Assembly (NCBI GenBank): GCA_951394045.1
Contig: OX595993.1
Location: 744,001-808,000, forward strand
Direction: 5' to 3'
From: Nitzschia sp. DOCU1
Taxonomy: Eukaryota > Bacillariophyta > Bacillariophyceae > Bacillariales > Bacillariaceae
DNA length: 64,000 nt
Positions 5,053-56,915 of the stretch are shown here, in pieces. Below the pieces are notes generated by a model, which did not search any database, had not been told where the DNA came from, and saw only the letters and a list, made by a program, of their open reading frames with translations. How positions within the stretch are numbered: position 1 is the stretch's first letter; the number at the start of each line of letters is the position of its first letter. The position numbers and the translations under genes are program-made.

Positions 5053-5181
5053 CTAGCAGCACTGCCTACAACCGAACAAGCAACCATGTGGCTGGTTCTA
5101 GCTGAACTAGAATACAAAGCATTAGACAGAAAGAACTAGAATTGTAAACTAATCATCCATTACTATTACTTCCGCTATCTT

Positions 5182-6302: not shown

Positions 6303-6382
6303 CAAACGTCTGCTTTTGTCGAACTTAAGGCGAATGACCCGACATACAACGGCGTTCGCTATCTTTATGCGAGCACGTGCCG

Positions 6383-6404
6383 GGCACATATACCCGCTTG
6401 CTCC
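6383..6404 (-). repeat. Right terminal inverted repeat of the transposon
   Basis: The reverse complement matches 1033-1054 with one mismatch in 22. The element ends here, 85 bp before the first ATG of the RBR ligase frame, so it has probably been placed in that gene's promoter or 5' leader. Confidence 0.75.
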
Positions 6405-6489
6405 AGCTATTACCTACTCCTCCTTTGACTCTCACCGCCGGTTTGGGGATTCTAAATTTAGTCGTAGAAGTCAATGATCCGACCGCCGT

Positions 6490-29960: not shown

Positions 29961-31640
29961 CTAGGCGCATCCAAACTCGTCGTCGCAACAAGTCGTGCAG
30001 CAGGAACATTGCACTTCACTGCAATCCGACCAAAAGTCCAAGAATTCCAATTCACAAATCGCATCACATATCGAAGGTCCCAAATCATTCGAATCAATAT
30101 AAAATAACTCCAATCGATCCAATGCTTGAAACTCGCACGGAACACTCCCTGTCAACTTGTTGTCAAAGAACGAAAGACCCGCAAGATGGGTCATTGCCGC
30201 CATTTCCGAAGGGATTGTTCCTTCCAGTTGATTGGAACCCAAATCCAATACTTGCAATGTCGTGAGGAGGCCAAGCTCACTGGGGATAGTGGAACCAATC
30301 TCGTTGGCAAACACAGTCAAATGAGTCAAGGCGCCTCCAAACAATCCCAGTTCCGTGGGCAAGCTTCCAGTCAATGCATTCGTAGAAAGATCGAAATGTT
30401 CCAAAGTCGTCATCACGTTCATCATGGTTGGGATAGTTCCACCCAATGTATTTTCCTGTAACCGCAAAACTTGCAGAGAATCCGACAGCATTGTCACTTC
30501 CGGTGGGAAAACACCCACCAGATTGTTCGCTCTCAAATCCAACTCAATCAACCTTCCATCCTGGTCACAAATGGTGCTCGACTTGCTTGTCGAGAACCAA
30601 ATGCACTCGTCGGCGCTTGTCAACCACATGAAGTTGTCTTTCCACTCCTCTCCAGCGGTAGCATAGAACAAGGTCGCCAAAGCGTATCGCTGGAGCAATT
30701 GATCTTCATCCAAAAAGTCACTATTGTCAGGCGACTTGATCCATGCCAGCGCTTGCGATTGGGGCGAATATGGATCTGCCAAGCTAGCACCCCGGTCGGG
30801 GGAGTTGGCAACAATCAAATCTCGCACCGCGTCACCTGACTGGCTGTTGCATTCAATGTTGGTACAGCAACTGCACGAAAACGTGGCGCTGCAAGTTGCT
30901 TCAAGTTCCTCCAACAGGGGCAAGTCACAAACCTGCTGTGGCATTGTCCCCGTAAACAAGTTATTCCGTAGGTGCAGACTGCGCAAGCTGCTCAGCAAAC
31001 CCAATTCGGTCGGGAGAGTACCGGTGAAGACGTTGTTGTTGAGCCAGAGAGTCTCCAAAGACGTCAAGACACCGATTTGTGTCGGAAGCGAACCGGTTAA
31101 TAGGTTGCTGTCCACATCTACATACTGCAGATTGGACAAAAACTCAATCGTAGTAGGGATGCTTCCAGAAAGTTGGTTCGAGAACATGTCAAAAGCAACC
31201 AAATTGCTCAAATAGCCAATTTCAAGCGGTAGAGATCCAACAACGCTGTTGTCGTAAAAGTCAATCACCTTGAGTTGATCCTTAAGCATCGCTAGGTCGA
31301 TCCACGGGATCGTTCCAGCAACTTTGTTCTCGTCCAAGTCAAATTCATCCAACAAACCATTGAGGTCACAGACGGGGTTTTCGGTTTCTGCAGTATACCA
31401 CTCGCACTCATCTTGATCGGTCAGCCAACCTTGGTTGTTTGCCCACTGAGTTCCATCAGTAGAGTAGAACAAAGTGGCCATAGCATAACGCTGTAGGATG
31501 CGATCGGGAGGATATGCTGATAAATTTTCATTGCCTTCCACCCAGTCCAATGCCATAGCTTGTGGGCTGTTCGGGTCGCTGAGCGGTAAGTCTCCCTGCT
31601 CATACAATTCTGCCCGTAAGTTTGCAACTAGCGAGTACAC
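29961..31640 (-). other. Two LRR ectodomains of the giant protein
   Basis: Domain A (about 30830-31640) and domain B (about 29961-30820) share one plan: a helical N-cap with LQRYA-ATLFY and a conserved W, a C-x-W...C pair (DECEWY ... VCDLNG; DECIWF ... ICDQDG), five to seven 24-residue LRRs with (L/F)(T/S)G(S/T)(I/L)P, and a Cys-rich end (CSATFSCSCC; CSEVQCSCCTTCC). The pair looks like an internal tandem duplication that has diverged. Secreted LRRs with Cys caps usually bind ligands or other surface proteins. Confidence 0.85.
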
Positions 31641-34600
31641 GGTCGGTGACGAGGTGGGCGCAGCGGGTGCACTGGGGGAGGGAGATGGCGTGTCGTTCCC
31701 GTTGCCGATCAACAAAATCGCAACACCTACTGCTCCGCCAGCTACCAAAAAGAGAACGAAACAACATTTGAACCAACCCATCCCACGTTTCTGCTTCACC
31801 GCCGAAGTACTGTCCGTCATCCTGCCAATGGCATACCCTTGTTCCACATCGAGAGGCTGCTGAGGGGAATTTTGAGCGGTGGATTCTTCCTCATCGGAGG
31901 CTTCTTCAATGCCACCCACGAATTTTGTTCCCGCCGCTGGCGGGAAGTCGGGGAGTGGCTTCGAAATTCCATGCTCGATGTCAACACTTTTGGAATCCGA
32001 GGATGTACTTTCTGATGACGATGAAGACTCCTTGGAGGATTTGGAGGAAGAGGCAGATGATGCGCTCTTCTCGGAACGGGTTTTGGTATCACTCGTCTTG
32101 GATGATTCCGATGAAGAGGGAGATGCTGTGCGCTTGTCCGAAGACCTCTTGGGTGTGCGCTTGTCGGAAGACCTTTTGGTACCATGATCATCAGTTGGCG
32201 CGTGTTCTTCCCTCATTTTAGTTGACTCAACAAAAGGGGGTGAAATAAAGCCCCCTTTGCCTTCTTCCATTTGGTCGAAGATTGAAGGTTTGTAAAGGTA
32301 CTCGGGCACGGCTTGTGTGGTTACGATTTGGACCACGGGGGATGACCAAAGCGGAACAGCATTTTCAAATGGCCCAACTTTGGGGGAGCGACCAGAGGAA
32401 GCATCCGAAGCTGAGCTAACAGGTTGAGGAGAGGCTGGGGTTACCGCAGGCGATCGGTACCAAGCAGCATACAATGCTGCCTTGTCTGGCTTCGGAGATG
32501 ACGCCTGCTTGCCGGGTGGTGCCCAATTCGAAGTGATGCTTGAAGATCGCGACGATGAAGGGGCCGTCACACTTGTTGACCTGGTATAGGTAGTCGGGTA
32601 ACGAGGCAATTCAATAATTGGCGGGTGTCGGCGATCCAACTTCTTCATTACTGGCGGGGCCCACGAAGATGGTGGAGCCCAGGTTGAGCTGACAGAAGTT
32701 TCGTCGCTGGTATCAAAGTAGTATGTTGTTCGTACAACAGGCTCGGCGGCTGGTGCAACTGAGATCTCGTTTGGTGGGTCGGGCCTCGGCTCTGATAGGT
32801 AGTCATTTGGCGCCACGCGCCGAATGTGCGAAAATGGGTTCCACTCGAACAGAGGTGCTGCCCACGAAGATGCCGACTTGCGCATTCGGCTGGCTTTGGA
32901 CAGTGTGTCTTCTTCAACGGCAGGTTGTGGTTTCTCCACGTACTCTGGAGCTTCATCCCATGAACGAAGCCTCTCATACGCTGTCATTATCCCTTTCCCA
33001 GCAAAGGATTTGTCATCCTCTTTCGACATTTGCGTTTGTGGCGATAAAACGCGGCCGTAGCCGTCTTCCTCCAAGATGTCATCAGGAAATGTTTTGGCTC
33101 GTGCTTTCACCATTTCCGCATTCTCGGCTTTTGGCACGCCAGGAAATCCGCTCTCCAGGTCTACGGCTTCGCCAGTGGCGAACGTTGAAGACTTTGAGGT
33201 TGAATTCTGCGACGACCCCCTAAGGGCTTCGAGGGCAGCCTTGGCCCTGCTAGACATTGTCGACCTGGACAATAGGCTTGCGATGCTGTAATCTGGGGCC
33301 GCGTTGTCCTCTCCGTTCAATGAGGTCCTTGTTTTCTTATTGCTGTCGCGTGCAGCAACCTCTTGGGTCTCGAGCGGTTGGGTTGTGCGGCTCGTGTGTT
33401 TTGATGCCGACTTACCTCGTGACGATCGGCTCGATCTCGACGACGACTCCTTCGATCCAATGCTACTAGAAGGTTTTGGTTTGGTGTCCTTCGTCGCGCT
33501 CTTTGACGAGGTCGCAGACAGCATGGTAGACCTGGAAGAGCCCGTTTCGTCGCGGGATCTTTCTTGCTCAGATGCTCTTATCTTGTCGCTTTTCCTTGAC
33601 TCCCTTCTGGCCTTGTCACTCCTCGATGACCTGGAGGGCTTGCTTGATCCAGAAGAGGATGCTCCTACAGAAACGTCACTTTGTTTCGAAGACTTGTCTT
33701 TTCGACGAGGACTCATCCCTAAAGACATCGCTGACGAATCGAAATCCATATCCAACGAGGAATCCAATACAGGCGCAGTGAAGTCAAGGGCCGGTGGAAC
33801 CCAGATACCATCGTCTGGCGTTGCAGCGCCTGTATCCTTCGCGCCGCCCTCTTCCTGCAGATACTGGTCAGCATCAGCCTCAATACCTTTCATGACACTT
33901 TCGAAGGTCGGAATCGTCGAGCCTGCAATGAAGCTCTCTTTCTTCGGTCTGTTTTTCTTCCTTGACGACCGCGACGATTTTGTTGACGATGAGCCCCCAG
34001 ATGAAGAACTTCCGGGTGACGAGTCCGACGACCGCGATGACGATGAGTCACTAGAACTTGAGGATTCGCCCTTCGTTGCCCCTTTTGCTGCCAACTTTTC
34101 GGCCTCTTCACCCTGTTGTCGAGCTTTGAGAGCAGCAGCTACCAAAGGTTTGTCAGGCGGTGGGCCCCTTGGCGCTTCGAACAAGTCACCGGATCCCAGA
34201 GAGTCAGCATCACTCTCGTGCCCTTCCTTCGGTTGATTCATAGCTGCCAGATGGACTGCTGCGGCCTCGGCATCTGCTTGCTTACGCGCTTTCAGCGCAG
34301 CGGCAACCAGTGGCTTGGCCGGTGGAGGGCCCTTCGGAGCTTCGAATAATTCCCCAGATCCGATAGAGTCGGCATCACTCTCGTGTTCTTTAATGGGCTG
34401 GTTCATGGCAGCAAGATGTTCTGGAGCCGAAACGGAAGTTGTCGACTCCCGCAACCTCGCACTCGTCCCCAAAGACATCGCTGACAAATCAAAATCCATA
34501 TTCGTCGAAGAATCCACTGCAGGCGCCATGAAGTCCAGAGGAGGTGGAACCCAGATTCCATCACCCAGGGTTCCATCTCCAGAATCTTTCGCTTTGTTCC

Positions 34601-37600
34601 TTAACGATTTTGCTGAGGACGAGCCATCAGATGTCGAACCGCTGGATAAAGAGCCTGGAGGTCGTGAGGGGTGTCCAGCGGACGAAGCCTCGCCTGAATT
34701 TGAATCTGCTGGTTTTTGACTAGTCGTACCCTTTTCCTCCCTTCTGACAGGACTTTTCGTTGTTTCTTTTTCCGATTCCTTCAGCTTTTCGGCCTTTTCG
34801 AAGTCTTGAAGATCCATGAGCTCATCGATAGACAAAGGCTCCCCAAGCATTTTTCGCGCGAACAAACCGAGAATGTAAAGGCGTTGTTCGTCGATTTCTT
34901 CGCCTTCGTCCTTGCGTTCCATCAATGCTTCAAACTCGTGTCTAAGCCTTCTTTCCCTACGCCTTTTCGGAAGAAAGGCGAGCAATTTCTCTTTTTCCTG
35001 CTCTTCTAAACTATCTCCGTTCTGCCATTTCTCAAATATATCCAATTTTTCAAGCCGCTCGTCGTCAAAGTCTTCTCCGCTGTCTTTCTGATCAAGCAAC
35101 TCGTCAAGTTCGTCTAATTCACCGGAAGAGAGACTAGAATCGTCGGCCTCACCAAAAGGTGGTAGCGACTTTTTCTCTTGCGATCGAGGGACAGACACAG
35201 ACGCCGTGCTCTCTCCTTCTGGCTCTTCCGAGGACTCAGAAAAATTCCTTTGTATGGGCGATGCTTCACCCGTCATTTTCGTCCCTTCTAGCACCGGTTC
35301 AGTGGGCAAAGACCAAAACTCGTCGCCCTCGGTGTTCGGTTTGTTGATCTTCGCACGTGCTGCCATGTACTCATCGCGGTTATCTTCAATGAGAGTAGAA
35401 ATATCCGGTGCAACCCAAACCTTGGATGAACTTGCTGAACCTGAAGAAGAGACCGACGACCTGGAAGAAGATTTTCTTGTCCGTATAATTTCTGCCTTTT
35501 TTAATTCTTCAGCCTGTTGTCGAGCTTTGAGCGCAGCAGCAACCAAAGGTTTGTCGGGAGGTGGGCCCTTTGGAGCTTCGAACAGCTCATCAGATCCCAA
35601 TGAGTCGGCATCGCTCTCGTGCTCCTCTTTCGGTTGATTCAGAGTGGCGAGATGTTCGGGTGCAACAGTGGACGACCTGGGTGAAGAGTCCGAAGATCGG
35701 GAAGAACGTCCAGAGGACGAGGCGTCATCCTTCTTTGGTGCAGTTTTTGCGGCTTTGTCGTGTGCGTCATCCTTCTTTGGTGTAGTTTTCGCGGCTCTTT
35801 CGGCCTCTTCAGCCTGTTGTCGAGCTTTGAGCGCAGCAGCAACCAAAGGTTTGTCGGGAGGTGGGCCCTTTGGAGCTTCGAACAGCTCATCAGATCCCAA
35901 TGAGTCGGCATCGCTCTCGTGCTCCTCTTTCGGTTGATTCAGAATGGCGAGATGTTCGGGTGCAACAGTGGACGACCTGGATGAAGAGTCCGAAGATCGG
36001 GAAGAACGTCCAGAGGACGAGGCGTCATCCTTCTTTGGTGCAGTTTTCGCGGCTCTTTCGGCCTCTTCAGCCTGTTGTCGAGCTTTGAGCGCAGCAGCAA
36101 CCAAAGGTTTGTCGGGAGGTGGACCCTTTGGAGCTTCGAACAGCTCACCAGATCCCAATGAGTCGGCATCGCTCTCGTGCTCCTCTTTCGGTTGATTCAG
36201 AGTGGCGAGATGTTCGGGTGCAACAGTGGACGACCTGGATGAAGAGTCCGAAGATCGGGAAGAACGTCCAGAGGACGAGGCGTCATCCTTCTTTGGTGCA
36301 GTTTTCGCGGCTCTTTCGGCCTCTTCAGCCTGTTTTCGAGCTTTGAGCGCAGCAGCAACCAAAGGTTTGTCGGGAGGTGGGCCCTTTGGAGCTTCGAACA
36401 GCTCATCAGATCCCAATGAGTCGGCATCGCTCTCGTGCTCCTCTTTCGGTTGATTCAGAGTGGCGAGATGTTCGCGTGCAACAGTGGACGACCTGGATGA
36501 AGAGCCCAAAGATCGCGAAGAACGTCCAGAGGACGAGGCGTCATCCTTCTTTGGTGTAGTTTTCGCGGCTCTTTCGGCCTCTTCAGCCTGTTGTCGAGCT
36601 TTGAGCGCAGCAGCAACCAAAGGTTTGTCGGGAGGTGGGCCCTTTGGAGCTTCGAACAGCTCATCAGATCCCAATGAGTCGGCATCGCTCTCGTGCTCCT
36701 CTTTCGGTTGATTCAGAGTGGCGAGATGTTCGGGTGCAACAGTGGACGACCTGGAGGAAAAGCCCGAAGATCGCGAAGAACGTCCAGAGGACGAGGCGTC
36801 ATCCTTCTTTGGTGTAGTTTTCGCGGCTCTTTCGGCCTCTTCAGCTTGTTGTCGAGCTTTGAGCGCAGCAGCAACCAAAGGTTTGTCGGGAGGTGGGCCC
36901 TTTGGAGCTTCGAACAGCTCATCAGATCCCAATGAGTCGGCATCGCTCTCGTGCTCCTCTTTCGGTTGATTCAGAATGGCGAGATGTTCGGGTGCAACAG
37001 TGGACGACCTGGAGGAAGAGCCCGAAGATCGCGAAGAACGTCCAGAGGACGAGGCGTCATCCTTCTTTGGTGCAGTTTTCGCGGCTCTTTCGGCCTCTTC
37101 AGCCTGTTGTCGAGCTTTGAGCGCAGCAGCAACCAAAGGTTTGTCGGGAGGTGGACCCTTTGGAGCTTCGAACAGCTCATCAGATCCCAATGAGTCGGCA
37201 TCGCTCTCGTGCTCCTCTTTCGGTTGATTCAGAGTGGCGAGATGTTCGGGTGCAACAGTGGACGACCTGGAGGAAAAGCCCGAAGATCGCGAAGAACGTC
37301 CAGAGGACGAGGCGTCATCCTTCTTTGGTGTAGTTTTCGCGGCTCTTTCGGCCTCTTCAGCTTGTTGTCGAGCTTTGAGCGCAGCGGCAACCAAAGGTTT
37401 GTCGGGAGGTGGGCCCTTTGGAGCTTCGAACAGCTCATCAGATCCCAATGAGTCGGCATCGCTCTCGTGCTCCTCTTTCGGTTGATTCAGAGTGGCGAGA
37501 TGTTCGGGTGCAACGGTGGACGACCTGGAGGAAGAGCCCGAAGATCGCGAAGAACGTCCAGAGGACGAGGCGTCATCCTTCTTTGGTGTAGTTTTCGCGG

Positions 37601-49600: not shown

Positions 49601-52600
49601 CAGCCACGAGCGGCTTGTCAGGTGGTGGCCCCTTTGCGGTTTCGAAAAGATCTCCAGAACCCAACGAGTCTCCGTCGCTCTCGTGTTCAATATTGGGCTG
49701 GTTCAGGTCATTCAGATGACCCGTAGGATCGTCACTAGAAGCCAGCTTGATCGGGGGTGCCTGGTCGGACCCTTCAGATTCGTCCTCGTTTGGAACCTTT
49801 TCTGGACTGATTGGAGCCTCCGATTCGCATGGCGCCGGAGCTGCTTTAGACTTGAGCTCCTGCTTCTCCTTTTCCTCTTTCTCGAAATCCTGCAAATCGA
49901 GCGATTCCTTTTCATCGAGATCTTCGCCCAGGTGGCGGCGGGCATAAAGTTCCAGGCAATATAATCGATCTTCGTCGACGTCCTCGCCATTCTCTCTTCG
50001 GTCCAAAAGGCTTTGGAATTCACGTCGATACGCCCTCTCTTGTCGCCGCCTCTCCTTGAATGCGTTTAGGTCAGCTTTCTCTACCGTGTCCAGCTCCTCC
50101 CCGCTCTGCCACCTGTCGAATAAGTCCAGCTCATATAGACGATCTTCGTCTATTGTTTCTCCGTTCTCTTGGCGCTCCAACAAACTGTTCAACTCGTCAA
50201 CCTCGCCAGATGACAAACTCGAATCATCATCAATACCAGCAACAACATTGATCGAATCTTTGCTGGTAACGGGCTTTTCAACGGTAGGGATTGTGGTCAG
50301 CCCTGGAGCAACAGCGGCAGAACCGATCGAACCTGGGAGCGGATCGTCTCCCATCGTTGACGGGGTATCTGAAACACTGGCAGACGATTCGGAAGATGTC
50401 GAAGAAGAACCATCGTCACCAGAGACATTGCCAGCATGGTCCTCCTCAATGTTGGCAAGCTTGGTTGCGGCCTCCGCCTTCTCCCTAGCCTTGAGGGCGG
50501 CAGCCACGAGCGGCTTGTCAGGTGGTGGCCCCTTTGCGGTTTCGAAAAGATCTCCAGAACCCAACGAGTCTCCGTCGCTCTCGTGTTCAATCTTGGGCTG
50601 GTTCAGGTCATTCAGATGACCCGTAGGATCGTCACTAGAAACCCGCTTGATCGGGGGTGCCTGGTCGGACCCTTCAGATTCGTCCTCATTTGGAACCTTT
50701 TCTGGATTAATTGAAGCCTCTGATTCGATTGGCGCAGAAGCTGCTTTTGACTTGAGCAACTGCTTTTGCTTTTCTTTCTTCTCGAAATCTTGCAAATCCA
50801 TTTGTTCATTTATCGACAACTCTCCGCCCAAATGATGGCGGGCGAGTAACTCAAGACAGTATAAACGATCTTCGTCGACGTCCTCGCCATTGTCCCTCTG
50901 GTCCAGTAGTTCTTCGAGCTCACGCCGGTAGGCTCGCTCTTGTCGCCGCCTGTTCTTGAAGGCATTTAGGCTCGCTTTCTCTTCCTGACCAAGTTCTTCC
51001 CCTCTCTTCCACTTGTCAAATAAGTCCAGCTCTTTGAGACGATCTTCGTCGATCTGCTCGCCGCTGTCCTTTCTATCAAGCAAATCATCCAACTCGTCCA
51101 CCTCGCCAGATGACAGACTCGAATCATCATCAATACCAGCAACGACCTCCTTTATGTTCGAGGCTGGGACAGTGGCCAGGGAAGCAACCGCAGCAGCGTC
51201 GGTCGCTGACATTGTCGAACTTGAGGGCGCATTATCTGGAACCATTGAGGGGGCAGCTGGCCCATTGACAGACGATTCGGAAGACGACGAAGAAGAACCA
51301 TCGTCACCAGAGACATTGCCAGCATGGTCCTCCTCAATGTTGGCAAGCTTGGTTGCGGCCTCCGCCTTCTCCCTAGCCTTGAGGGCGGCAGCCACGAGCG
51401 GCTTGTCAGGTGGTGGCCCCTTTGCGGTTTCGAAAAGATCTCCAGAACCCAACGCGTCTCCGTCGCTCTCGTGTTCAATCTTGGGCTGGTTCAGGTCATT
51501 CAGATGACCCGTAGGATCGTCACTAGAAGCCAGCTTGATCGGGGGTGCCTGGTCGGACCCTTCAGGTTCGTCCTCGTTTGGAACCTTTTCTGGACTGATT
51601 GGAGCCGGAGCTGCTTTAGACTTGAGCTCCTGCTTCTCCTTTTCCTCTTTCTCGAAATCCTGCAAATCGAGCAATTCCTTTTCATCGAGCTCTTCGCCCA
51701 GGTAGCGGCGGGCATAAAGTTCCAGGCAATATAATCGATCTTCGTCGACGTCCTCGCCATTCTCTCTTCGGTCCAAAAGGCTTTGGAATTCACGTCGATA
51801 CGCCCGCTCTTGTTGCCGCTTCTTCTTGAATGCGTTTAGGTCAGCTTTCTCTCCCATGTCCAGCTCCTCCCCGCTCTGCCACCTGTCGAATAAGTCCAGC
51901 TCATATAGACGAGCTTCATCGACCTCCTCCCCGTTCTCCTTTCTATCAAGCAAATCATCCAACTCGTCAACCTCGCCAGATGACAAACTCGAATCATCAT
52001 CAATACCAGCACCCACCTCGATCGAATCTCCGCTCTCGACTGGCCCTGGCACCGGTAAGGTCTGGATATGGGCCGGGGAAACAACAGCAGCAGGTTCTGC
52101 AACTGTCGATCTTGTTAGCGCATCATCTTGAACTTTCGGTGAGACCGCAGGTCCGTTGACAGACGATTCGGAAGACGACGAAGAAGAACCATCGTCACCA
52201 GAGCCATTGCCAGCTTGGTCCTCCTTAATGTTGGCAGGCTTGGTTGCGGCCTCCGCCTTCTCCCTAGCCTTGAGGGCGGCAGCCACGAGCGGCTTGTCAG
52301 GTGGTGGCCCCTTTGCGGTTTCGAAAAGATCTCCAGAACCCAACGAGTCTCCGTCGCTCTCGTGTTCAATCTTGGGCTGGTTCAGGTCATTCAGATGACC
52401 CGTAGGATCGTCACTAGAAGCCAGCTTGATCGGGGGTGCCTGGTCGGACCCTTCAGATTCGTCCTCGTTTGGAACCTTTTCTGGACTGATTGGAGCCTCC
52501 GATTCGCATGGCGCCGGAGCTGCTTTAGACTTGAGCTCCTGCTTCTCCTTTTCCTCTTTCTCGAAATCTTGCAAGTCAAGCAGCTCGTCCTCTGTTAAAT

Positions 52601-55600
52601 CTTCGCCTAAATGTCTTCTGGCATATAGTTCCAGGCAGTACAAGCGATCATCGTCGACGTCCTCGCCATTCTCTCTTCGGTCCAAAAGGCTTTGGAATTC
52701 ACGTCGATACGCCCGCTCTTGTTGCCGCCTCTTCTTGAATGCGTTTAGGTCAGCTTTCTCTTCCGTGTCCAGCTCCTCCCCGCTCTGCCACCTGTCGAAT
52801 AAGTCCAGCTCATATAGACGATCTTCGTCTATTGTTTCTCCGTTCTCTTGGCGCTCCAACAAACTGTTCAACTCGTCAACCTCGTCTGACGACAAGCTTG
52901 ATTCTTCATAGATATTCCCTTCACGACTATGTGAGGAAGACATCGCTGGCGATGCATCACGGTTGTTCTTTTCAAGGCCAATTGTCGGGTCTACCGGCAC
53001 AGGCGTAGTTTGTGAAGCATTTGATACCGTTGATGCACCACTATGTGATGAATTATCTGACGCACTTTCCGTCGCCGGCAGTTCTTGTCCCGGTCTCTCC
53101 CCTTGACCAACAACATCATCATCCGTGGTCTGCGCTACTGGGACAGCAGTTTTGACATTGTAGAAAACAGTGATATCAGCACCCATTCGATTCGATTCAG
53201 CCACCTGAAAGTCCCGCAATAACGCAGCTTCGTTGTCATTCAATTTTTCCCCAGTGCGGGATCGTTCAAGGAGCTCAAGAATGCCGAGTCTGCTGTCGTC
53301 GATCGACTCCCCGGCCTCCATTTTCTCTTTGAGTATTATGTACTCCTTCTTTAGTTTCCGTTGAAATAGTCGGCGCTGCCGAAACTTCTGGTTCAAAGCC
53401 CTTTCCGATGGCTCTAGCGTACCTCCATTTTGCCATCGGTCAAAGAGCTCAAGGTCTCGCAGGCGATCATGGTCATAAGTCGCACCGGAATGGCGGTTGG
53501 AGCGAAGGTGACTGAGCTCTTCCAATTCATTTTTAGAAAGAACGGAATCTTGTGCATCGTTGAGAGAACTATTGGCCGACGAGTTCGATTGGGACATGTC
53601 TGCATTCGATGACTGGCTTGAGTCGGTGTCACCGTCAGCAGCTGAATGCATGCTTGATGCTTCCTGGATAGCGGGCAGGGAGGCACCCGGGGTATGCGCA
53701 TGTTTAAGAATCTGTTTCGACAGCTCGGAAGCAGCGACCGCTTCGGCGAATTCCTCTTCATTTTCAAAGTCTTGAAGGTCCAATAGCTCATCTTTGGACA
53801 ACTCATCACCAACACGTCGACGTTCCAAAAGCTCCAGACAGTAAAGACGATCTTCGTCGACCGCGTCGCCCTTTTCTGCTTTATCGAGCATTTGAAGGAG
53901 CTCCTTGCGGTACTGGCGCTCTTTGCGACGCTTTGCCTTAAAAACATTCAAGTCCTCCTGTTCCTTCTCGTCGAGTGATTCACCGCTCTGAAATTTGTCG
54001 TACAGATCGAGGTCGTAAAGGCGGCTTTCATCCACTTTCTCTCCGTTTTCTTGTTGTTCGAGTAGGTCGTTCAGTTCCTCCAGCTCACCAGACGAGAGAC
54101 TGGAGTCCGTGAAGCTTTTCTGCTGGTCCTCGTCGTGTGCTGCAGGTTTGCTTGTCGGTGCTGACTGACCAACCCTTTTCTTTCCAGTACCACTGGAACT
54201 GCTGCTACCGCTACTGGAGGAAGCATCATCATCTCCAAGCAAAGCCTTGGCTTTGGCGCGAGCTGCTTCTCGCGGATCGTCGACCTTGGCAGGTTCGGCT
54301 ATCTGCTCCGTTTTCGTCTTCTCAGGAGTAACTCGTTCCTTTTCTTCGTTCTCGAAGTCCTGTAGATCCAACAACTCGTCCTCCGAAAGATCCTCGCCCA
54401 CCCGCCGCCGTTCCATCAATTCCAAACAGTAAAGGCGGTCTTCGTCAACCATTTCTCCGCGGTCACTGCGATCCAAGAGAGCCAAAAATTCCTTACGGTA
54501 GGCCCGTTGTCGCCGCCGCCGTTCCTGGAATTTGCGAAGATCGGCCCTCTCTTCGGCACTCAAATCTTCACCTGCCTGCCATCGGTCCATCAAGTCTAAT
54601 TCATAGAGACGGTCAACGTCGACTGCTTCTCCATTGTCTTGACGTTCCAAGAGATGATTGAGTTCCGCCAACTCTGCCGAGGACAAGCTGGACTCACTCA
54701 TAGATTGATCAATCTCACCAGGGGAGCCTGGTGTCGGGGTGCTCGTAGTATTAGCTGGAGGGGATGAAGCATTGGATGGCGGTTCCTTGTGCGTGGGCTT
54801 GTCCCCTCCGAGCGACCCAAAGGAAGCGTTCAAACTCGAGTTGGAGTCAAACGGCAATGTTGGCGGATTTGACCATACTTGAGGATCCTGCTCGCTCTCT
54901 GGAGGGTGTGACCCTTCTTTGATATCGGTGGAAGTTGACGAGGCAGATGACGAATCGCTAGGTTGATAGGAGGATCGGTCTGGAAAAGCCTGGGATGCAA
55001 TGGATGCGGGGGTCCCGCCGGGTGCGAACGACGCTACTCGACCTTGATGCTGGGGTTTTAATGGTTCTTCTTCGGAGGACGAAGTGGAAGCTCCCGGACT
55101 TGGCATTCCTTGCCGTCGATGGGACGTCGATCGCTGACTCGAAGAAGGATGATGACTGGTGCTCTCTTGACTGGGTTCACCGGTGCTAAAGTATGCACTC
55201 TCTTGAGAGGATTGCCCGCTTAATTCAACCTCTTCTTCGTCCCATTCATCGGCACGTTCACTGGCGCTACTTGACGCAACATTGGAATCCATGCTGCTTT
55301 CAATGGAATTTTCCAGGGACGCGTCGCCCTCGTCCGAGTAAGCTTGCGTTTCGTAGCTAGACTCTTCGCTCTGCTCTTCCTCGCTGACGTCCATGTCTTC
55401 TGCCGTCGAATGACGAGAAGAAGACTTTTCCTGTGACTCTTTGCCCTTACTTGACCTAGTAGAGGCGTCTTCAGCAACGGCCTCCATGGAGGGAGCAAAC
55501 TCGTGGCCGGATCCATATTGTCGTCGAGGCTTGGATCGGGGGGTCTTGTCGTCATCTCGCGCTAGAACTGCAGCTAAACGGGTTCTGCCACTTTGTTGGG

Positions 55601-56915
55601 GAGTGGAATCCACTTCAAGTTGCGATTTTTGCTGTTGTTGCGGACTGTTGTCTCCGTCGGTGCCCCCTTGAGCAAGACGGTGGTGGTCCGTTGAAGCGAC
55701 ACTATGTCTTTCCTCGGCCCCTTCTTTGGTAGCATATGTCTCCAAAGAAAAAACGCTTCCCACAGCAGACCATACTCCTGACATTTTGCTGCTATCGTAA
55801 GAATACGCCATTGAGTCATCAAAATCCGAATGTTCCGCCTCTTCATGTCGCTTATCGAGAAACGGAGCACTCAGGAACTTTTTCAGCGCCCATTTTTCTT
55901 GGGGTGTCACAGGAGACGGAGCCGTCTGATGGTGGGGCGCTCCCGATCCAGGCGTTTGGGGACCACCGGCACCGTAGCGTCCCATGCCGGGTTGCCGAAG
56001 ATCTTTGGTGGGAGCAAAAAAGGGCGTCTCGCCCGCTTCCGAATCATCCGTGTAGGAAGCATAAGAGCTCCCTTGATAGCTCGAACTCTGATACGATGAT
56101 TCTCCGGTATCATTCTCATCGTCATCGTATTCGGATTCTTCCGAGGAATCCGCGGGTGTCGCATCTCCGTGAAACACTTCGCTGGGTGTCATGCTCATTT
56201 CCATGGCATTTGCGGTGAAGGATCGCTGCAAATTCGGCTGCGGGGAGGGTAATGCAAAGCTGCCTAGCGATCGACGGTTATCATAGTCATCTGCATCATG
56301 GGCAAACGACTGTGCGCTAGCGTCAAAGTCGTCAGGGCGTTGTTGTTGTTGTTGTTGTTGTTGCGTTGGAGGAGGATCCTTTAACTTGAACGATTGTTGA
56401 CGCCGTCGTTCCTCCTCCCCCGACGAAGAAGAATCCTCCCCACTACCACCACCTTCTTCTTGAGTCCCCAATCGGACTTGTAGTTTTTCGGATTCCGTAA
56501 TGGGAGAGTCCAACTCGCTTCGATTGCCAGTATCATCGTCCTCCTCCCACATGGCGTCATCCGATATCGAAGGTGGGCGATTATTAGAGCTATTCGTATC
56601 GCTGCTTCGTCGAGAAGTAAAGGTCACATTGGTTCTGGGAGCCGTGGATTCCGATTGGATTGAATGGCCACTGGTACTGTACATACTATAACCGGAATGG
56701 TCACTTAAATTCCGCGTTGGACGAGCACTGGATCCGCCGGGACTCGGAGGCACATTCTGGGGAGGCGGTGCAATGGTTGCCATCACGACGACTTTTCTCA
56801 TATCCACAACCTCCACCTCATCTTCATCGGCTTCTTCGTCGCTGTTGTTGTCGCCGTCGCGTTGTTGTTCTCGAGTCGGACTACCATCCGATTCAGAAGA
56901 CCCAGAGCTGCTCAT
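29961..56915 (-). CDS. Giant single-TM LRR protein with about 8.4-kilo-residue repetitive tail (about 8,984 aa)
   Basis: One uninterrupted frame of 26,955 bp; ATG 56915 (the six codons upstream begin with TTG), stop at 29961. Order: acidic Ser/Glu-rich disordered head with a Gln run (residues 1 to about 730); 16 copies of a charged helical module, one only a half copy, of 'SSLSSGEVDELNDLL ... NGEDIDEDRLYELDL ... FARRHLGEEL' type; 36 linker units ending KGPPPDKPL-AA; a block of nine WxPP...F motifs (40570-41515); Ser/Lys/Arg-rich stretches; a TM near 8380-8403 (CCFVLFLVAGGAVGVAILLI); then two LRR domains with plant-type repeats (LSGSIPTTI, LTGSLPTELG), each opened by an ALATLFY...W cap and closed by a Cys cluster. 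A positive flank before the TM (KQKRG) favours tail inside, LRRs outside. The LRR part resembles known diatom TM-LRR proteins; the tail modules match no family I know. It ends tail-to-tail with MsrA, 178 bp apart. Confidence 0.85.
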   Translation of the reverse strand: MSSSGSSESDGSPTREQQRDGDNNSDEEADEDEVEVVDMRKVVVMATIAPPPQNVPPSPGGSSARPTRNLSDHSGYSMYSTSGHSIQSESTAPRTNVTFTSRRSSDTNSSNNRPPSISDDAMWEEDDDTGNRSELDSPITESEKLQVRLGTQEEGGGSGEDSSSSGEEERRRQQSFKLKDPPPTQQQQQQQQRPDDFDASAQSFAHDADDYDNRRSLGSFALPSPQPNLQRSFTANAMEMSMTPSEVFHGDATPADSSEESEYDDDENDTGESSYQSSSYQGSSYASYTDDSEAGETPFFAPTKDLRQPGMGRYGAGGPQTPGSGAPHHQTAPSPVTPQEKWALKKFLSAPFLDKRHEEAEHSDFDDSMAYSYDSSKMSGVWSAVGSVFSLETYATKEGAEERHSVASTDHHRLAQGGTDGDNSPQQQQKSQLEVDSTPQQSGRTRLAAVLARDDDKTPRSKPRRQYGSGHEFAPSMEAVAEDASTRSSKGKESQEKSSSRHSTAEDMDVSEEEQSEESSYETQAYSDEGDASLENSIESSMDSNVASSSASERADEWDEEEVELSGQSSQESAYFSTGEPSQESTSHHPSSSQRSTSHRRQGMPSPGASTSSSEEEPLKPQHQGRVASFAPGGTPASIASQAFPDRSSYQPSDSSSASSTSTDIKEGSHPPESEQDPQVWSNPPTLPFDSNSSLNASFGSLGGDKPTHKEPPSNASSPPANTTSTPTPGSPGEIDQSMSESSLSSAELAELNHLLERQDNGEAVDVDRLYELDLMDRWQAGEDLSAEERADLRKFQERRRRQRAYRKEFLALLDRSDRGEMVDEDRLYCLELMERRRVGEDLSEDELLDLQDFENEEKERVTPEKTKTEQIAEPAKVDDPREAARAKAKALLGDDDASSSSGSSSSSGTGKKRVGQSAPTSKPAAHDEDQQKSFTDSSLSSGELEELNDLLEQQENGEKVDESRLYDLDLYDKFQSGESLDEKEQEDLNVFKAKRRKERQYRKELLQMLDKAEKGDAVDEDRLYCLELLERRRVGDELSKDELLDLQDFENEEEFAEAVAASELSKQILKHAHTPGASLPAIQEASSMHSAADGDTDSSQSSNADMSQSNSSANSSLNDAQDSVLSKNELEELSHLRSNRHSGATYDHDRLRDLELFDRWQNGGTLEPSERALNQKFRQRRLFQRKLKKEYIILKEKMEAGESIDDSRLGILELLERSRTGEKLNDNEAALLRDFQVAESNRMGADITVFYNVKTAVPVAQTTDDDVVGQGERPGQELPATESASDNSSHSGASTVSNASQTTPVPVDPTIGLEKNNRDASPAMSSSHSREGNIYEESSLSSDEVDELNSLLERQENGETIDEDRLYELDLFDRWQSGEELDTEEKADLNAFKKRRQQERAYRREFQSLLDRRENGEDVDDDRLYCLELYARRHLGEDLTEDELLDLQDFEKEEKEKQELKSKAAPAPCESEAPISPEKVPNEDESEGSDQAPPIKLASSDDPTGHLNDLNQPKIEHESDGDSLGSGDLFETAKGPPPDKPLVAAALKAREKAEAATKPANIKEDQAGNGSGDDGSSSSSSESSVNGPAVSPKVQDDALTRSTVAEPAAVVSPAHIQTLPVPGPVESGDSIEVGAGIDDDSSLSSGEVDELDDLLDRKENGEEVDEARLYELDLFDRWQSGEELDMGEKADLNAFKKKRQQERAYRREFQSLLDRRENGEDVDEDRLYCLELYARRYLGEELDEKELLDLQDFEKEEKEKQELKSKAAPAPISPEKVPNEDEPEGSDQAPPIKLASSDDPTGHLNDLNQPKIEHESDGDALGSGDLFETAKGPPPDKPLVAAALKAREKAEAATKLANIEEDHAGNVSGDDGSSSSSSESSVNGPAAPSMVPDNAPSSSTMSATDAAAVASLATVPASNIKEVVAGIDDDSSLSSGEVDELDDLLDRKDSGEQIDEDRLKELDLFDKWKRGEELGQEEKASLNAFKNRRRQERAYRRELEELLDQRDNGEDVDEDRLYCLELLARHHLGGELSINEQMDLQDFEKKEKQKQLLKSKAASAPIESEASINPEKVPNEDESEGSDQAPPIKRVSSDDPTGHLNDLNQPKIEHESDGDSLGSGDLFETAKGPPPDKPLVAAALKAREKAEAATKLANIEEDHAGNVSGDDGSSSTSSESSASVSDTPSTMGDDPLPGSIGSAAVAPGLTTIPTVEKPVTSKDSINVVAGIDDDSSLSSGEVDELNSLLERQENGETIDEDRLYELDLFDRWQSGEELDTVEKADLNAFKERRRQERAYRREFQSLLDRRENGEDVDEDRLYCLELYARRHLGEDLDEKESLDLQDFEKEEKEKQELKSKAAPAPCESEAPISPEKVPNEDESEGSDQAPPIKLASSDDPTGHLNDLNQPNIEHESDGDSLGSGDLFETAKGPPPDKPLVAAALKAREKAEAATKPANIKEDHAGNGSGDDGSSSTSSESSVNGPAVPSKIQVDALTRSTVAEPAAVVSPAHIQTLPVPGPVESGDSIEVGAGIDDDSSLSSGEVDELNSLLERQENGETIDEDRLYELDLFDRWQSGKELDTQEKADLNAFKKRRQQERAYRREFQSLLDRRENGEDVDEDRLYCLELYARRHLGEELDEKESLDLQDFEKEEKEKQELKSKAAPAPISPEKVPNEDESEGSDQAPPIKLASSDDPTGHLNDLNQPKIEHESDGDSLGSGDLFETAKGPPPDKPLVAAALKAREQAEAATKLANIEEDHAGNVSGDEGSSSSSSESSINGPAAPSMVPDNAPSSSTMSATDAAAVASLATVPASNIKEVVAGIDDDSSLSSGEVDELDDLLDRKDSGEQIDEDRLKELDLFDKWKRGEELGQEEKASLNAFKNRRRQERAYRRELEELLDQRDNGEDVDEDRLYCLELLARHHLGGELSINEQMDLQDFEKKEKQKQVPESRAVVSSLVASPLAVTSDLTSHDAGTFTAASNTVQQPETAELTVNAGSSTAESFSSTRSSGSSSTGSSSSDSSSGDSSSSSTSTHSSSKNDATKRESFIAGSTIPTFESVMRGIEADADKYIQSEGDTTDTGDATSDSIWVPPVLDFAAPTVDLSSDMDFDSSAMSLGMRDSTISVFDPEQFATSQSREGVDEGEDSLRFGKSSDAPKSPTQAEETKKEKHDLPRMASSSSSTSSSGSSLPPASMGIESGSEDSSLSSGEVDELNDLLDRQENGEDIDEDRLYELDLFDKWQSGEELDDEEKADLDAFKKKRRKERGYRKEFEDLLRRRDSGEDIDEDRLYCLELFARRHLGEELADSELRELEDFEQEEAKERPSVTLSPVPDGIGGLPPVRRATSEDPTGHLKDLNQPKTNYDNDGDSLGSGELFDAPKGPPPDKPLLAAAIKAREQAEAEERARLKRGDPTKGQHLANLNQPIEEHESDEDSLGSGELFDAPKGPPPDKPLLAAAIKAREQAEAEERARLKRGDPTKGQHLANLNQPIEEHESDEDSLGSGELFDAPKGPPPDKPLLAAAIKAREQAEAEERARLKRGDPTKGQHLANLNQPIEEHESDEDSLGSGELFDAPKGPPPDKPLLAAAIKAREQAEAAAKLAKIEEDGHPDEVSSSGGSSSRSSHGSSKRSSSGSSSGSSTGMPSDAPVPASKDDAILPASMGIESGSEDSSLSSGEVDELNDLLDRQENGEDIDEDRLYELDLFDKWQSGEELDDEEKADLDAFKKKRRKERGYRKEFEDLLRRRDSGEDIDEDRLYCLELFARRHLGEELADSELRELEDFEQEEAKERPSVTLSPVPDGIGGLPPVRRATSEDPTGHLKDLNQPKTNYDNDGDSLGSGELFDAPKGPPPDKPLLAAAIKAREQAEAEERARLKRGDPTKGQHLANLNQPIEEHESDEDSLGSGELFDAPKGPPPDKPLLAAAIKAREQAEAEERARLKRGDPTKGQHLANLNQPIEEHESDEDSLGSGELFDAPKGPPPDKPLLAAAIKAREQAEAEERARLKRGDPTKGQHLANLNQPIEEHESDEDSLGSGELFDAPKGPPPDKPLLAAAIKAREQAEAAAKLAKIEEDGHPDEVSSSGGSSSRSSHGSSKRSSSGSSSGSSTGMPSDAPVPASKDDAILPASMGIESGSEDSSLSSGEVDELNDLLDRQENGEDIDEDRLYELDLFDKWQSGEELDDEEKADLDAFKKKRRKERGYRKEFEDLLRRRDSGEDIDEDRLYCLELFARRHLGEELADSELRELEDFEQEEAKERPSVTLSPVPDGIGGLPPVRRATSEDPTGHLKDLNQPKTNYDNDGNSLGSGELFDAPKGPPPDKPLLAAAIKAREQAEAEERARLKRGDPTKGQHLANLNQPIEEHESDEDSLGSGELFDAPKGPPPDKPLLAAAIKAREQAEAEERARLKRGDPTKGQHLANLNQPIEEHESDEDSLGSGELFDAPKGPPPDKPLLAAAIKAREQAEAEERARLKRGDPTKGQHLANLNQPIEEHESDEDSLGSGELFDAPKGPPPDKPLLAAAIKAREQAEAAAKLAKIEEDGHPDEVSSSGGSSSRSSHGSSKRSSSGSSSGSSTGMPSDAPVPASKDDAILPASMGIESGSEDSSLSSGEVDELNDLLDRQENGEDIDEDRLYELDLFDKWQSGEELDDEEKADLDAFKKKRRKERGYRKEFEDLLRRRDSGEDIDEDRLNLLGLYGKKMLGESLSKQEESELLRLEYPVSQTPVVEGQRGNFLPNDLRHIGTSSSSSNSVRSEELLHSAVAAGIGPGEYDWSSGSDSDSTKESIRQDDKQAFLPSLAAREEDSVRSNESRLSAWEVEELNDLLDKEANGEPLDEDRLYDLDLFSRWQRGEDLDDEETDDLEAFRAQRSDVEKYRGKFKPKNVGGDIGKSSISAATATDLVDPVAAARKRAQELLRLAGDNDEEEHGEMMQSSSSSSSSSSRSSDSMASIPLVQVDIAAKTVGDESSFAGREVASSGEQQPVNESDSGMRERDEKKAGPVRGFFKSIFGKRNEPMNDDVKDTNNVGEATKPAHDAFELHPSAFDQSQYRNNAMPTFDTVDEPSARSESRSINDDLSTSTDSVISSVGASGANKVWSMLGMGDSGEGSSSHSLSEGIQPSAGAFEENGISEGEAGPAALYWKPPRSSFFDEEAPSNMQMTTSPTQPDHSVGDNANNLSWEAPRASFFGDVPRRQGEETTKSSVEGLETQKDDISWQPPNKAFFAGEDGDDRSQESDVNGGALTWQPPDVAYFDEADKMPNDAEETSTTPVSWVPPEASFFDDSLSKDNVRRVGVGEQETGKETHVWSPPDSTFFDDSVKGRREPDDMASSSESSSSNTSEEREKISSNWSPPDSSYFTGINKPSDFDSENSAASSGSSRSTRPDDSEELGVDMWSPPDSSYFAAPSSERRQASSSTSEDSINSGSAGSKSFNHGENVWSPPDSAYFVAAPASQESLDSRPSERSSLSSGERDSVPKKTVVVGSLEPGESAGSKPNNASATEVNSQSKISTSTVQAPRKEELPESHAVSVQVPPFDETSDSSLSSGEIDEMDELVDRKDNDETIDEDRLDGLDAFDKWQNGEELTKGEAMTLSQFRSKRNHERGLRKEFQDLLERRDEGEAIDEARLHCLGLFGRKMLGEQLSPEEENTLEHFLKHGVPPSSIEENTHDKTAKTAPKKDDASSSGRSSRSSGSSSRSSTVAPEHLDTLNQPKEEHESDADSLGSDELFEAPKGPPPDKPLVAAALKARQQAEEAERVAKTTPKEDDASSAGRSSRSSGSSSRSSTVAPEHLATLNQPKEEHESDADSLGSDELFEAPKGPPPDKPLVAAALKARQQAEEAERAAKTTPKKDDASSSGRSSRSSGSSSRSSTVAPEHLATLNQPKEEHESDADSLGSDELFEAPKGPPPDKPLVAAALKARQQAEEAERAAKTTPKKDDASSSGRSSRSSSRSSTVAPEHLATLNQPKEEHESDADSLGSDELFEAPKGPPPDKPLVAAALKARQQAEEAERAAKTTPKKDDASSSGRSSRSSGSSSRSSTVAPEHLATLNQPKEEHESDADSLGSGELFEAPKGPPPDKPLVAAALKARQQAEEAERAAKTTPKKDDASSSGRSSRSSGFSSRSSTVAPEHLATLNQPKEEHESDADSLGSDELFEAPKGPPPDKPLVAAALKARQQAEEAERAAKTTPKKDDASSSGRSSRSLGSSSRSSTVAREHLATLNQPKEEHESDADSLGSDELFEAPKGPPPDKPLVAAALKARKQAEEAERAAKTAPKKDDASSSGRSSRSSDSSSRSSTVAPEHLATLNQPKEEHESDADSLGSDELFEAPKGPPPDKPLVAAALKARQQAEEAERAAKTAPKKDDASSSGRSSRSSDSSSRSSTVAPEHLAILNQPKEEHESDADSLGSDELFEAPKGPPPDKPLVAAALKARQQAEEAERPAKTTPKKDDASSSGRSSRSSGSSSRSSTVAPEHLATLNQPKEEHESDADSLGSDELFEAPKGPPPDKPLVAAALKARQQAEEAERAAKTTPKKDDASSSGRSSRSSGFSSRSSTVAPEHLATLNQPKEEHESDADSLGSDELFEAPKGPPPDKPLVAAALKARQQAEEAERAAKTAPKKDDASSSGRSSRSSGSSSRSSTVAPEHLAILNQPKEEHESDADSLGSDELFEAPKGPPPDKPLVAAALKARQQAEEAERAAKTTPKKDDASSSGRSSRSSGFSSRSSTVAPEHLATLNQPKEEHESDADSLGSDELFEAPKGPPPDKPLVAAALKARQQAEEAERAAKTTPKKDDASSSGRSSRSLGSSSRSSTVAREHLATLNQPKEEHESDADSLGSDELFEAPKGPPPDKPLVAAALKARKQAEEAERAAKTAPKKDDASSSGRSSRSSDSSSRSSTVAPEHLATLNQPKEEHESDADSLGSGELFEAPKGPPPDKPLVAAALKARQQAEEAERAAKTAPKKDDASSSGRSSRSSDSSSRSSTVAPEHLAILNQPKEEHESDADSLGSDELFEAPKGPPPDKPLVAAALKARQQAEEAERAAKTTPKKDDAHDKAAKTAPKKDDASSSGRSSRSSDSSPRSSTVAPEHLATLNQPKEEHESDADSLGSDELFEAPKGPPPDKPLVAAALKARQQAEELKKAEIIRTRKSSSRSSVSSSGSASSSKVWVAPDISTLIEDNRDEYMAARAKINKPNTEGDEFWSLPTEPVLEGTKMTGEASPIQRNFSESSEEPEGESTASVSVPRSQEKKSLPPFGEADDSSLSSGELDELDELLDQKDSGEDFDDERLEKLDIFEKWQNGDSLEEQEKEKLLAFLPKRRRERRLRHEFEALMERKDEGEEIDEQRLYILGLFARKMLGEPLSIDELMDLQDFEKAEKLKESEKETTKSPVRREEKGTTSQKPADSNSGEASSAGHPSRPPGSLSSGSTSDGSSSAKSLRNKAKDSGDGTLGDGIWVPPPLDFMAPAVDSSTNMDFDLSAMSLGTSARLRESTTSVSAPEHLAAMNQPIKEHESDADSIGSGELFEAPKGPPPAKPLVAAALKARKQADAEAAAVHLAAMNQPKEGHESDADSLGSGDLFEAPRGPPPDKPLVAAALKARQQGEEAEKLAAKGATKGESSSSSDSSSSRSSDSSPGSSSSGGSSSTKSSRSSRKKNRPKKESFIAGSTIPTFESVMKGIEADADQYLQEEGGAKDTGAATPDDGIWVPPALDFTAPVLDSSLDMDFDSSAMSLGMSPRRKDKSSKQSDVSVGASSSGSSKPSRSSRSDKARRESRKSDKIRASEQERSRDETGSSRSTMLSATSSKSATKDTKPKPSSSIGSKESSSRSSRSSRGKSASKHTSRTTQPLETQEVAARDSNKKTRTSLNGEDNAAPDYSIASLLSRSTMSSRAKAALEALRGSSQNSTSKSSTFATGEAVDLESGFPGVPKAENAEMVKARAKTFPDDILEEDGYGRVLSPQTQMSKEDDKSFAGKGIMTAYERLRSWDEAPEYVEKPQPAVEEDTLSKASRMRKSASSWAAPLFEWNPFSHIRRVAPNDYLSEPRPDPPNEISVAPAAEPVVRTTYYFDTSDETSVSSTWAPPSSWAPPVMKKLDRRHPPIIELPRYPTTYTRSTSVTAPSSSRSSSITSNWAPPGKQASSPKPDKAALYAAWYRSPAVTPASPQPVSSASDASSGRSPKVGPFENAVPLWSSPVVQIVTTQAVPEYLYKPSIFDQMEEGKGGFISPPFVESTKMREEHAPTDDHGTKRSSDKRTPKRSSDKRTASPSSSESSKTSDTKTRSEKSASSASSSKSSKESSSSSESTSSDSKSVDIEHGISKPLPDFPPAAGTKFVGGIEEASDEEESTAQNSPQQPLDVEQGYAIGRMTDSTSAVKQKRGMGWFKCCFVLFLVAGGAVGVAILLIGNGNDTPSPSPSAPAAPTSSPTVYSLVANLRAELYEQGDLPLSDPNSPQAMALDWVEGNENLSAYPPDRILQRYAMATLFYSTDGTQWANNQGWLTDQDECEWYTAETENPVCDLNGLLDEFDLDENKVAGTIPWIDLAMLKDQLKVIDFYDNSVVGSLPLEIGYLSNLVAFDMFSNQLSGSIPTTIEFLSNLQYVDVDSNLLTGSLPTQIGVLTSLETLWLNNNVFTGTLPTELGLLSSLRSLHLRNNLFTGTMPQQVCDLPLLEELEATCSATFSCSCCTNIECNSQSGDAVRDLIVANSPDRGASLADPYSPQSQALAWIKSPDNSDFLDEDQLLQRYALATLFYATAGEEWKDNFMWLTSADECIWFSTSKSSTICDQDGRLIELDLRANNLVGVFPPEVTMLSDSLQVLRLQENTLGGTIPTMMNVMTTLEHFDLSTNALTGSLPTELGLFGGALTHLTVFANEIGSTIPSELGLLTTLQVLDLGSNQLEGTIPSEMAAMTHLAGLSFFDNKLTGSVPCEFQALDRLELFYIDSNDLGPSICDAICELEFLDFWSDCSEVQCSCCTTCCDDEFGCA
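35513..39900 (-). repeat. 258-bp tandem array, 17 copies (86-residue unit)
   Basis: The unit encodes a Ser/Arg stretch, VAPEHLATLNQPKEEHESD, then ADSLGSDELFEAPKGPPPDK and PLVAAALKARQQAEEAE. Equivalent points lie at 35644, 35944, 36202, 36460, 36718, 36976, 37234, 37492, 37750, 38008, 38266, 38524, 38782, 39040, 39289, 39547 and 39805. The spacing is 258 bp except for one unit 9 bp shorter and one 42 bp longer, both in frame. Variant patterns recur at an offset of 1806 bp (7 units). Confidence 0.95.
40570..41515 (-). repeat. Nine WxPPxxxxF motifs in the giant protein
   Basis: In protein order: YWKPPRSSFF, SWEAPRASFF, SWQPPNKAFF, TWQPPDVAYF, SWVPPEASFF, VWSPPDSTFF, NWSPPDSSYF, MWSPPDSSYF and VWSPPDSAYF, spaced irregularly in acidic, Ser-rich sequence. 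Related motifs (IWVPPPLDF, SSWAPP) occur elsewhere in the tail. It looks like a multivalent short linear motif for an unknown partner. Confidence 0.85.
42865..47345 (-). repeat. 1401-bp tandem array, about 3.2 near-identical copies
   Basis: Equivalent points recur exactly 1401 bp apart (43039, 44440, 45841, 47242), i.e. 467 codons. Each unit has one helical module, four linker units (the last three at 195-bp spacing) and a Ser-rich spacer ending near MGIESGSEDSS. I see only isolated differences between copies, for example GCGAGTTGCC at 44011 against GCGAGTCGCC in the other two, so the duplication or gene conversion is recent. Confidence 0.95.
47900..52900 (-). repeat. Tandem array of about 891-bp units with five linker copies
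   Basis: Equivalent points lie at 48645, 49536, 50436, 51324 and 52215, spaced 891, 900, 888 and 891 bp, all multiples of three. Each unit combines one helical module (two alternating subtypes, DRKDSGEQIDEDRLKEL and ERQENGETIDEDRLYEL), a KEEKEKQELKSKAAPAP-like linker, and one LNQP...KGPPPDKPL unit. Confidence 0.9.

Follow-up and report, generated by a model that had tools for sequence, protein, structure and literature searches.

We identified a coding frame for a protein of 8,984 residues in the window, that is, the whole 64,000-bp stretch of diatom DNA analysed here (C9:744001-808000 of a 52.08-Mb assembly in 63 contigs). We hold with moderate confidence that it encodes a single-exon, single-pass receptor-like protein of the diatom transmembrane leucine-rich-repeat (TM-LRR) type, in which a repeat-enlarged cytosolic tail of about 8,380 residues would form a membrane-anchored multivalent scaffold. 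The frame lies on the minus strand, with its ATG at 56915 and its stop codon ending at 29961 (Table 1), and contains no internal stop codon over its 8,984 residues, which bears out the preliminary description of this DNA as an intronless frame open over 26,955 bp; from the open frame we infer a single exon. Its stop-to-stop version (29964-56960) has 8,999 codons, the runner-up in a scan of both strands of the same 27 kb having 399, and the protein has a calculated mass of 971 kDa and a pI of 4.6.

Table 1. Features of the giant gene (window positions) and two related single-frame giants elsewhere in the genome (contig positions)
Feature	Position	Strand	Residues	Evidence
Whole coding frame, ATG to stop	29961..56915	-	8,984 in all	frame scan, translation
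N-terminal Ser/Glu/Asp-rich low-complexity region	54681..56915	-	1-745	composition; no Pfam family above cut-off
Helical doublet 1	54345..54668	-	750-857	repeat profile
Helical doublet 2	53757..54080	-	946-1053	repeat profile
Helical doublet 3	53205..53522	-	1132-1237	repeat profile
Helical doublet 4	52554..52877	-	1347-1454	repeat profile
Five HLxxLNQP...KPLLAAAxKAR motifs between helical doublets	48681..52397	-	1507-2745	motif scan
Helical doublet 5	51645..51968	-	1650-1757	repeat profile
Helical doublet 6	50772..51098	-	1940-2048	repeat profile
Helical doublet 7	49875..50198	-	2240-2347	repeat profile
Helical doublet 8	48966..49289	-	2543-2650	repeat profile
Helical doublet 9	48093..48419	-	2833-2941	repeat profile
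Three 1401-bp super-repeats	43128..47330	-		second copy 3 bases and third copy 6 bases different from the first
Helical doublet 10 (the one folded)	46965..47288	-	3210-3317	repeat profile; AlphaFold pLDDT 91.9, pTM 0.73
12 HLxxLNQP...KPLLAAAxKAR motifs, 195-bp units inside the super-repeats	43332..46865	-	3351-4528	motif and tandem-repeat scan
Helical doublet 11	45564..45887	-	3677-3784	repeat profile
Helical doublet 12	44163..44486	-	4144-4251	repeat profile
Helical doublet 13	42771..43085	-	4611-4715	repeat profile
Helical single repeat	42315..42467	-	4817-4867	repeat profile
WxPP cluster, 8 of 14 copies	40581..41501	-	5139-5445	sequence scan
Helical doublet 14	39963..40280	-	5546-5651	repeat profile
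Array of 17 HLxxLNQP...KPLLAAAxKAR motifs, 258-bp units	35508..39815	-	5701-7136	motif and tandem-repeat scan
Helical doublet 15	34791..35114	-	7268-7375	repeat profile
Final two HLxxLNQP...KPLLAAAxKAR motifs	34107..34418	-	7500-7603	motif scan
Juxtamembrane tail	31767..34118	-	7600-8383	residues ~7600-8290 colinear with P0012
Sole predicted transmembrane segment	31704..31766	-	8384-8404	hydropathy scan
C-terminal ectodomain, two leucine-rich-repeat blocks and cysteine-rich caps	29964..31688	-	8410-8984	Pfam LRR_1 2.9e-26, LRR_8 1.2e-15; sequence reading
Single-frame giant rich in helical repeats, 4,519 codons	C9:1245683-1259239			repeat profile
Single-frame giant rich in helical repeats, 3,861 codons, C-terminal BTB domain	C8:141791-153373			repeat profile; Pfam

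Membrane segment, ectodomain and orientation

Hydropathy over the whole protein revealed one strongly hydrophobic stretch only, with basic residues before it and a Pro/Ser/Thr linker after it, and no hydrophobic N-terminus. By hydropathy, this single segment adjoins the LRR domain, as in diatom TM-LRR receptor-like proteins. Four Pfam families (LRR_1, LRR_14, LRR_8 and LRR_4) scored above their cut-offs in the last 615 residues (8370-8984), the two LRR blocks sitting within the final 575, and the earlier reading of the locus as a diatom-type LRR membrane protein is upheld by these matches together with the hydrophobic segment. The seven pieces that span all 8,984 residues gave no kinase family among the Pfam matches, and the five NCBIfam families matched by the LRR part, which have LRRs in common with it, all fell far under their cut-offs.

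According to the positive-inside rule, the basic flank of a transmembrane segment faces the cytosol. Because basic residues precede the segment and the tail is cysteine-poor (0.17 cysteines per 100 residues, versus 3.5 in the ectodomain), the N-terminal tail is predicted to lie in the cytosol and the C-terminal LRR ectodomain outside the cell or in a lumen, both the transmembrane call and this N-in topology coming from hydropathy and composition. N-x-S/T sequons number one in the ectodomain and 27 in the tail; therefore, glycosylation lends no support to this orientation. The tail of ~8,380 residues opposite the LRR side matches the roughly 8,400 residues that had been predicted to be cytosolic.

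Two other loci in the window deserve mention. An intradiol (catechol-type) dioxygenase is encoded at 24379-25362 on the plus strand (Pfam E 1.1e-41), and an intradiol dioxygenase is among the enriched secreted proteins of Nitzschia putrida (PMC9054022). Positions 1138-2105 hold tandem arrays with periods of 9-135 bp, TGCTGG-rich from 1470, in which long frames are open on both strands.

Repeat modules of the tail and selection on them

The tail is built largely of two repeat families. The first is a helical repeat of ~57 residues with the core consensus xElxxLlxxxxxGexxDedRLyeLeLxxrxrxGexLxxxExxxLxxFxxxR, found in 31 copies arranged as 15 doublets and one single, which together make up the 16 modules counted previously; the doublet folded with AlphaFold has a confident helical fold. 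The second is a ~50-residue motif, HLxxLNQP...DSLGSxxLFDxPKGPPPxKPLLAAAxKARxQAEA, present in 36 copies and predicted to be mostly disordered, with one C-terminal helix of ~20 residues (pLDDT 70.8, pTM 0.27). Doublets and motifs mostly alternate over residues 1347-4715. A shorter motif, WxPP, often WSPPDSSYF or IWVPPxLDF, occurs 14 times, versus a mean of 0.22 and a maximum of 3 in 2,000 shuffles. In addition, a block of ~70 residues (IPTFESV...GIEADADxY...IWVPPxLDF) occurs twice in the tail, at window positions 47568-47786 and 33717-33938 on the minus strand (residues ~3044-3116 and ~7660-7733), and once in the database protein P0012; its IWVPPxLDF half is found a third time at residue 7454.

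No Pfam family had a stretch that passed by itself anywhere in the ~8,380-residue tail. Of the five families listed for residues 3331-4805, three exceeded the cut-off on the whole-piece score only, namely, Upf2 (36.6 bits, cut-off 29.8), the phosphatidylinositol 4-phosphate binding domain PF14860 (34.6, cut-off 26.2) and DM14 of CC2D1A/B (25.4, cut-off 24.6), and we rejected all three as weak matches summed across near-identical repeats. The DM14 match, which falls on the helix of the motif and recurs below the cut-off in residues 2335-3330, is at best a weak lead. ECM11 and PF03549, which complete the five, and the remaining weak Pfam matches stayed under their cut-offs. NCBIfam returned nothing for one helical doublet or one 66-residue motif stretch, and no PDB match was given for one helical doublet. 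The doublet and the HLxxLNQP motif are thus apparently two unclassified modules, having no convincing match in Pfam or NCBIfam.

At the DNA level, we recovered the 195-bp and 258-bp periods noticed before, as arrays at 43330-46824 and at 35764-39913 (16.1 units, 97% matches), respectively. The motifs in the 258-bp array are spaced by 86 aa, except for one step of 83 aa and one of 100 aa, which correspond to the 9-bp deletion and the 42-bp insertion of the preliminary description. The 1401-bp period likewise reappeared, as three super-repeats, and since their copies differ by so few bases (Table 1), the expansion or homogenisation is taken to be recent. Copy numbers could be wrong in arrays as near-identical as these (97% matches; 3-6 differences per 1401 bp).

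It had been argued that the frame is under selection because the repeat periods and indels are multiples of three. This argument is weak alone, since any in-frame repeat within an open frame gives such periods; the claim itself, however, is sustained by codon-position differences and dN/dS. Among the 36 motif cores (630 pairs), differences at codon positions 1, 2 and 3 number 2676, 2027 and 9787, and six diverse copies (15 pairs) give 130, 75 and 416. The mean dN/dS (Nei-Gojobori) is 0.08 for the motif cores (307 of the 630 pairs computable), 0.22 for the helical A repeats (21 of 105 pairs), 0.20 for the B repeats (25 of 91) and 0.29 for the 258-bp array (136 of 136), means that lean toward young pairs because saturated ones are left out, and in which gene conversion among copies breaks the assumed independence. 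On these comparisons, the tail is protein sequence under purifying selection between copies, with differences mostly at third codon positions.

Relatives in databases and shared modules in the genome

The protein searches scored just the ~8,000 candidates with the most words in common with the query. The first search returned 16 relatives, and the eight of them with an organism name or taxid all come from Cylindrotheca or 'Bacillariaceae sp.'; since only ~8,000 candidates were scored, this hints at a restriction to raphid diatoms but does not establish it. When 17 relatives were pooled, helical repeats were found in 15, motifs in six, and a transmembrane segment plus LRR in one, P0001 (1,839 aa), a single predicted protein with 13 motif copies, two WxPP, one transmembrane segment, five LRR-pattern matches and no helical repeats; thus, none of the 17 joins helical modules to a TM-LRR part. 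P0002-P0004 have motif arrays and, at the C-terminus, a single helical doublet, neither a transmembrane segment nor LRRs being found. P0012 (860 aa, no transmembrane segment) aligns over its whole length, with gaps, to giant residues ~7600-8290, and the local score of giant residues 7700-8380 against P0012 residues 251-860 is 407, compared with 95 +/- 12 (maximum 134) in 200 shuffles. As the alignment is colinear, these ~690 residues of the juxtamembrane tail are conserved protein sequence. P0011 is labelled a Cylindrotheca closterium transcriptome protein, which tells us that helical repeats are transcribed in that species, and no more. Pfam gave no match in the eight of the 17 relatives scanned, including P0005.

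A search for full-length relatives (query residues 700-5699; candidates of 4.9-15.7 thousand aa) found none among 524 scored, which carries little weight, as very long eukaryotic genes are presumably in pieces in most such collections; given this outcome, the extreme length is known from one assembly. Pattern-matched stretches of viral contigs, 150 for the doublet and 37 for the motif, encoded no relative. In bacterial and archaeal genomes, searched with the doublet only, one of 572 stretches did (L043:2950-3456): a helical doublet with 58% identity to the query, at the end of contig JALOKO010000179.1 of a metagenome-assembled genome (MAG) filed as Bryobacterales. Since the start of the module coincides with a drop in G+C content from ~60-70% to ~42%, this contig is probably a chimera with diatom DNA and not evidence of a bacterial gene.

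Within the genome itself, the doublet query gave 56 matches, 16 of them in this gene, 16 in the 4,519-codon frame on C9, and six in the 3,861-codon frame on C8; shorter frames on C1, C3, C9, C10, C11 and C17 hold the remaining 18. By the helical profile, the C9 paralogue has 34 matches (some overlapping) and the C8 paralogue 11. At its C-terminus, the latter has a BTB domain (E 2e-6) and shares 44% identity over 115 residues with the C-terminus of P0005, a protein in which a BTB domain is suggested solely by this alignment; the C-terminal part of the C9 paralogue is 39% identical to P0010 over 646 residues. Because of these two alignments, the C-terminal parts of both paralogues can be considered conserved. 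The motif occurs in five copies in a 2,029-residue BSD-domain protein, in six in a 2,068-residue protein that appears ankyrin-like on visual inspection (in the 1,496 residues scanned, Pfam found no ankyrin family) and in one in a 1,096-residue protein. Wherever the hydropathy scan was applied to these large module-sharing proteins, it found no transmembrane segment. Neither the juxtamembrane tail (411 aa) nor the main WxPP block (341 aa) was matched anywhere else in the genome. On C10 (L017), C3 (L018, L019) and C17 (L020), segments of up to 2.7 kb that are mutually 88-99% identical bear helical-repeat fragments, some with stop codons, and may be recent duplications or a mobile element.

The LRR ectodomain, on the other hand, has at least 203 matching stretches in the genome (71 of 442 candidates scored). 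Eleven frames of >=450 codons at the 11 loci examined have an LRR pattern or alignment and an internal hydrophobic stretch, preceded, in a first-ATG reading, by about 20 to 1,254 residues; two of them have long Ser-rich tails with WxPP (1,254 and 867 residues). The giant looks like a member of this TM-LRR class, with a tail ~6.7 times the next longest among the 11 loci examined.

Known systems and possible roles of the tail

Plant LRR receptor kinases and receptor-like proteins have a plant-type LRR and a single membrane pass, and the kinases carry a cytosolic kinase domain. The giant shares the LRR type and the single pass, but its C-terminal LRR gives it a topology that is the reverse of the kinases', and none of its Pfam matches is to a kinase domain. 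Giant scaffold or spring proteins of the titin kind are composed of folded modules and disordered segments as beads on a chain, an order also predicted for the giant, although it has no Ig or fibronectin match in Pfam. Closer to hand, MRP2 and MRM2 of Pseudo-nitzschia multistriata have a transmembrane region and an LRR domain with no recognisable kinase, and the role suggested for them is that of a pheromone receptor or an adhesion molecule (PMC6261938). The giant has all the tested features of this TM-LRR class, namely, an LRR domain, a single adjoining transmembrane segment and no kinase match, but unlike MRP2 and MRM2 as described there, it carries two repeat families in a tail of ~8,380 residues. 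In Seminavis, LRR genes form one of the main groups of tandem duplicates (PMC7335047), and LRR-containing proteins are the commonest secreted proteins of N. putrida (PMC9054022). Diatom proteins of about equal mass and modular build are, by description, CaTrailin4 (~900 kDa) and Ca5609 (>1 MDa) of Craspedostauros australis; however, these are located in adhesive trails (PMC11420354). The giant differs in having a single transmembrane segment close to the C-terminus, in lacking a hydrophobic N-terminus, and in having most of its length opposite the LRR. In the literature searched, which covers few subscription journals, we recognised no published description of the giant, although this is not proof of absence.

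If the giant is instead a signalling receptor, the LRR would sense a pheromone or bacterial cue, the Ser/Asp/Glu-rich tail would be a platform for multisite phosphorylation, and its length would reflect neutral repeat drift. The kinase-less putative receptors of Pseudo-nitzschia offer a precedent, and Ser makes up 9-19% of tail segments. However, CK2-like [ST]xx[DE] sites, for which we rejected an enrichment, number 239 in the giant versus 311 in shuffles, and the purifying selection on motif cores speaks against wholly neutral growth of the tail. We consider this account unlikely.

A spring or gliding-tether role for the tail is possible, but that an elastic tail links raphe actomyosin across the membrane to secreted strands, as the membrane-spanning part of the adhesion motility complex, appears to us decidedly doubtful. 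A fully stretched residue is ~0.36 nm long, and the 8,380-residue tail of this single-pass protein would then reach about 3 micrometres. The published model of this complex requires that biomolecules connect without a break from raphe-associated actin, through the plasma membrane, to the polymer secreted outside, and the adhesive trails of Craspedostauros already contain very large modular proteins, as mentioned above; the available text of the model, however, names no such linking protein (PMC11420354). The eight relatives of named origin would suit a gliding function, but restriction to raphid diatoms is only a hint from the searches, no actin- or myosin-binding family appears among the Pfam matches of the entire protein, and the modules are common to BTB- and BSD-domain proteins.

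Finally, it is very improbable that adjacent genes or mis-assembled repeats have been read as one frame, for although near-identical arrays are difficult to assemble, the 8,999 codons are free of stops, the last helical doublet and motifs share a frame with the membrane segment at a distance of about 800-1,000 residues, P0001 is a single predicted protein that unites a motif array, transmembrane segment and LRRs, and the juxtamembrane tail has a colinear counterpart in P0012; copy number, not the existence of the gene, could be the erroneous part.

That other large proteins contain the same modules points to partners in common or to co-assembly, and since no transmembrane segment was found in those of them that were scanned, we consider a binding network shared inside the cell more likely than a purpose-built spring. 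In the scaffold that we propose, repeat duplication would have enlarged the cytosolic N-terminal tail to its present length, and the LRR ectodomain, facing the outside or a lumen, would bind a ligand or matrix. The folded helical doublets would sit as beads along an acidic disordered chain, while the tandem motif copies, through their C-terminal helix, and the WxPP motifs might dock, and so cluster, many copies of intracellular partners, which may include proteins from the same module families. In a bolder version, to which we give little credence, the undescribed doublet and motif modules would build an intracellular network of giant scaffolds, with the giant as its membrane anchor and as the missing transmembrane link between cortical cytoskeleton and adhesive strand in a gliding diatom. 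If the scaffold reading is right, the locus would encode a near-megadalton, single-exon receptor-like protein with two new protein modules, and would provide a concrete, taggable candidate for the molecules that couple the diatom interior to its surface.
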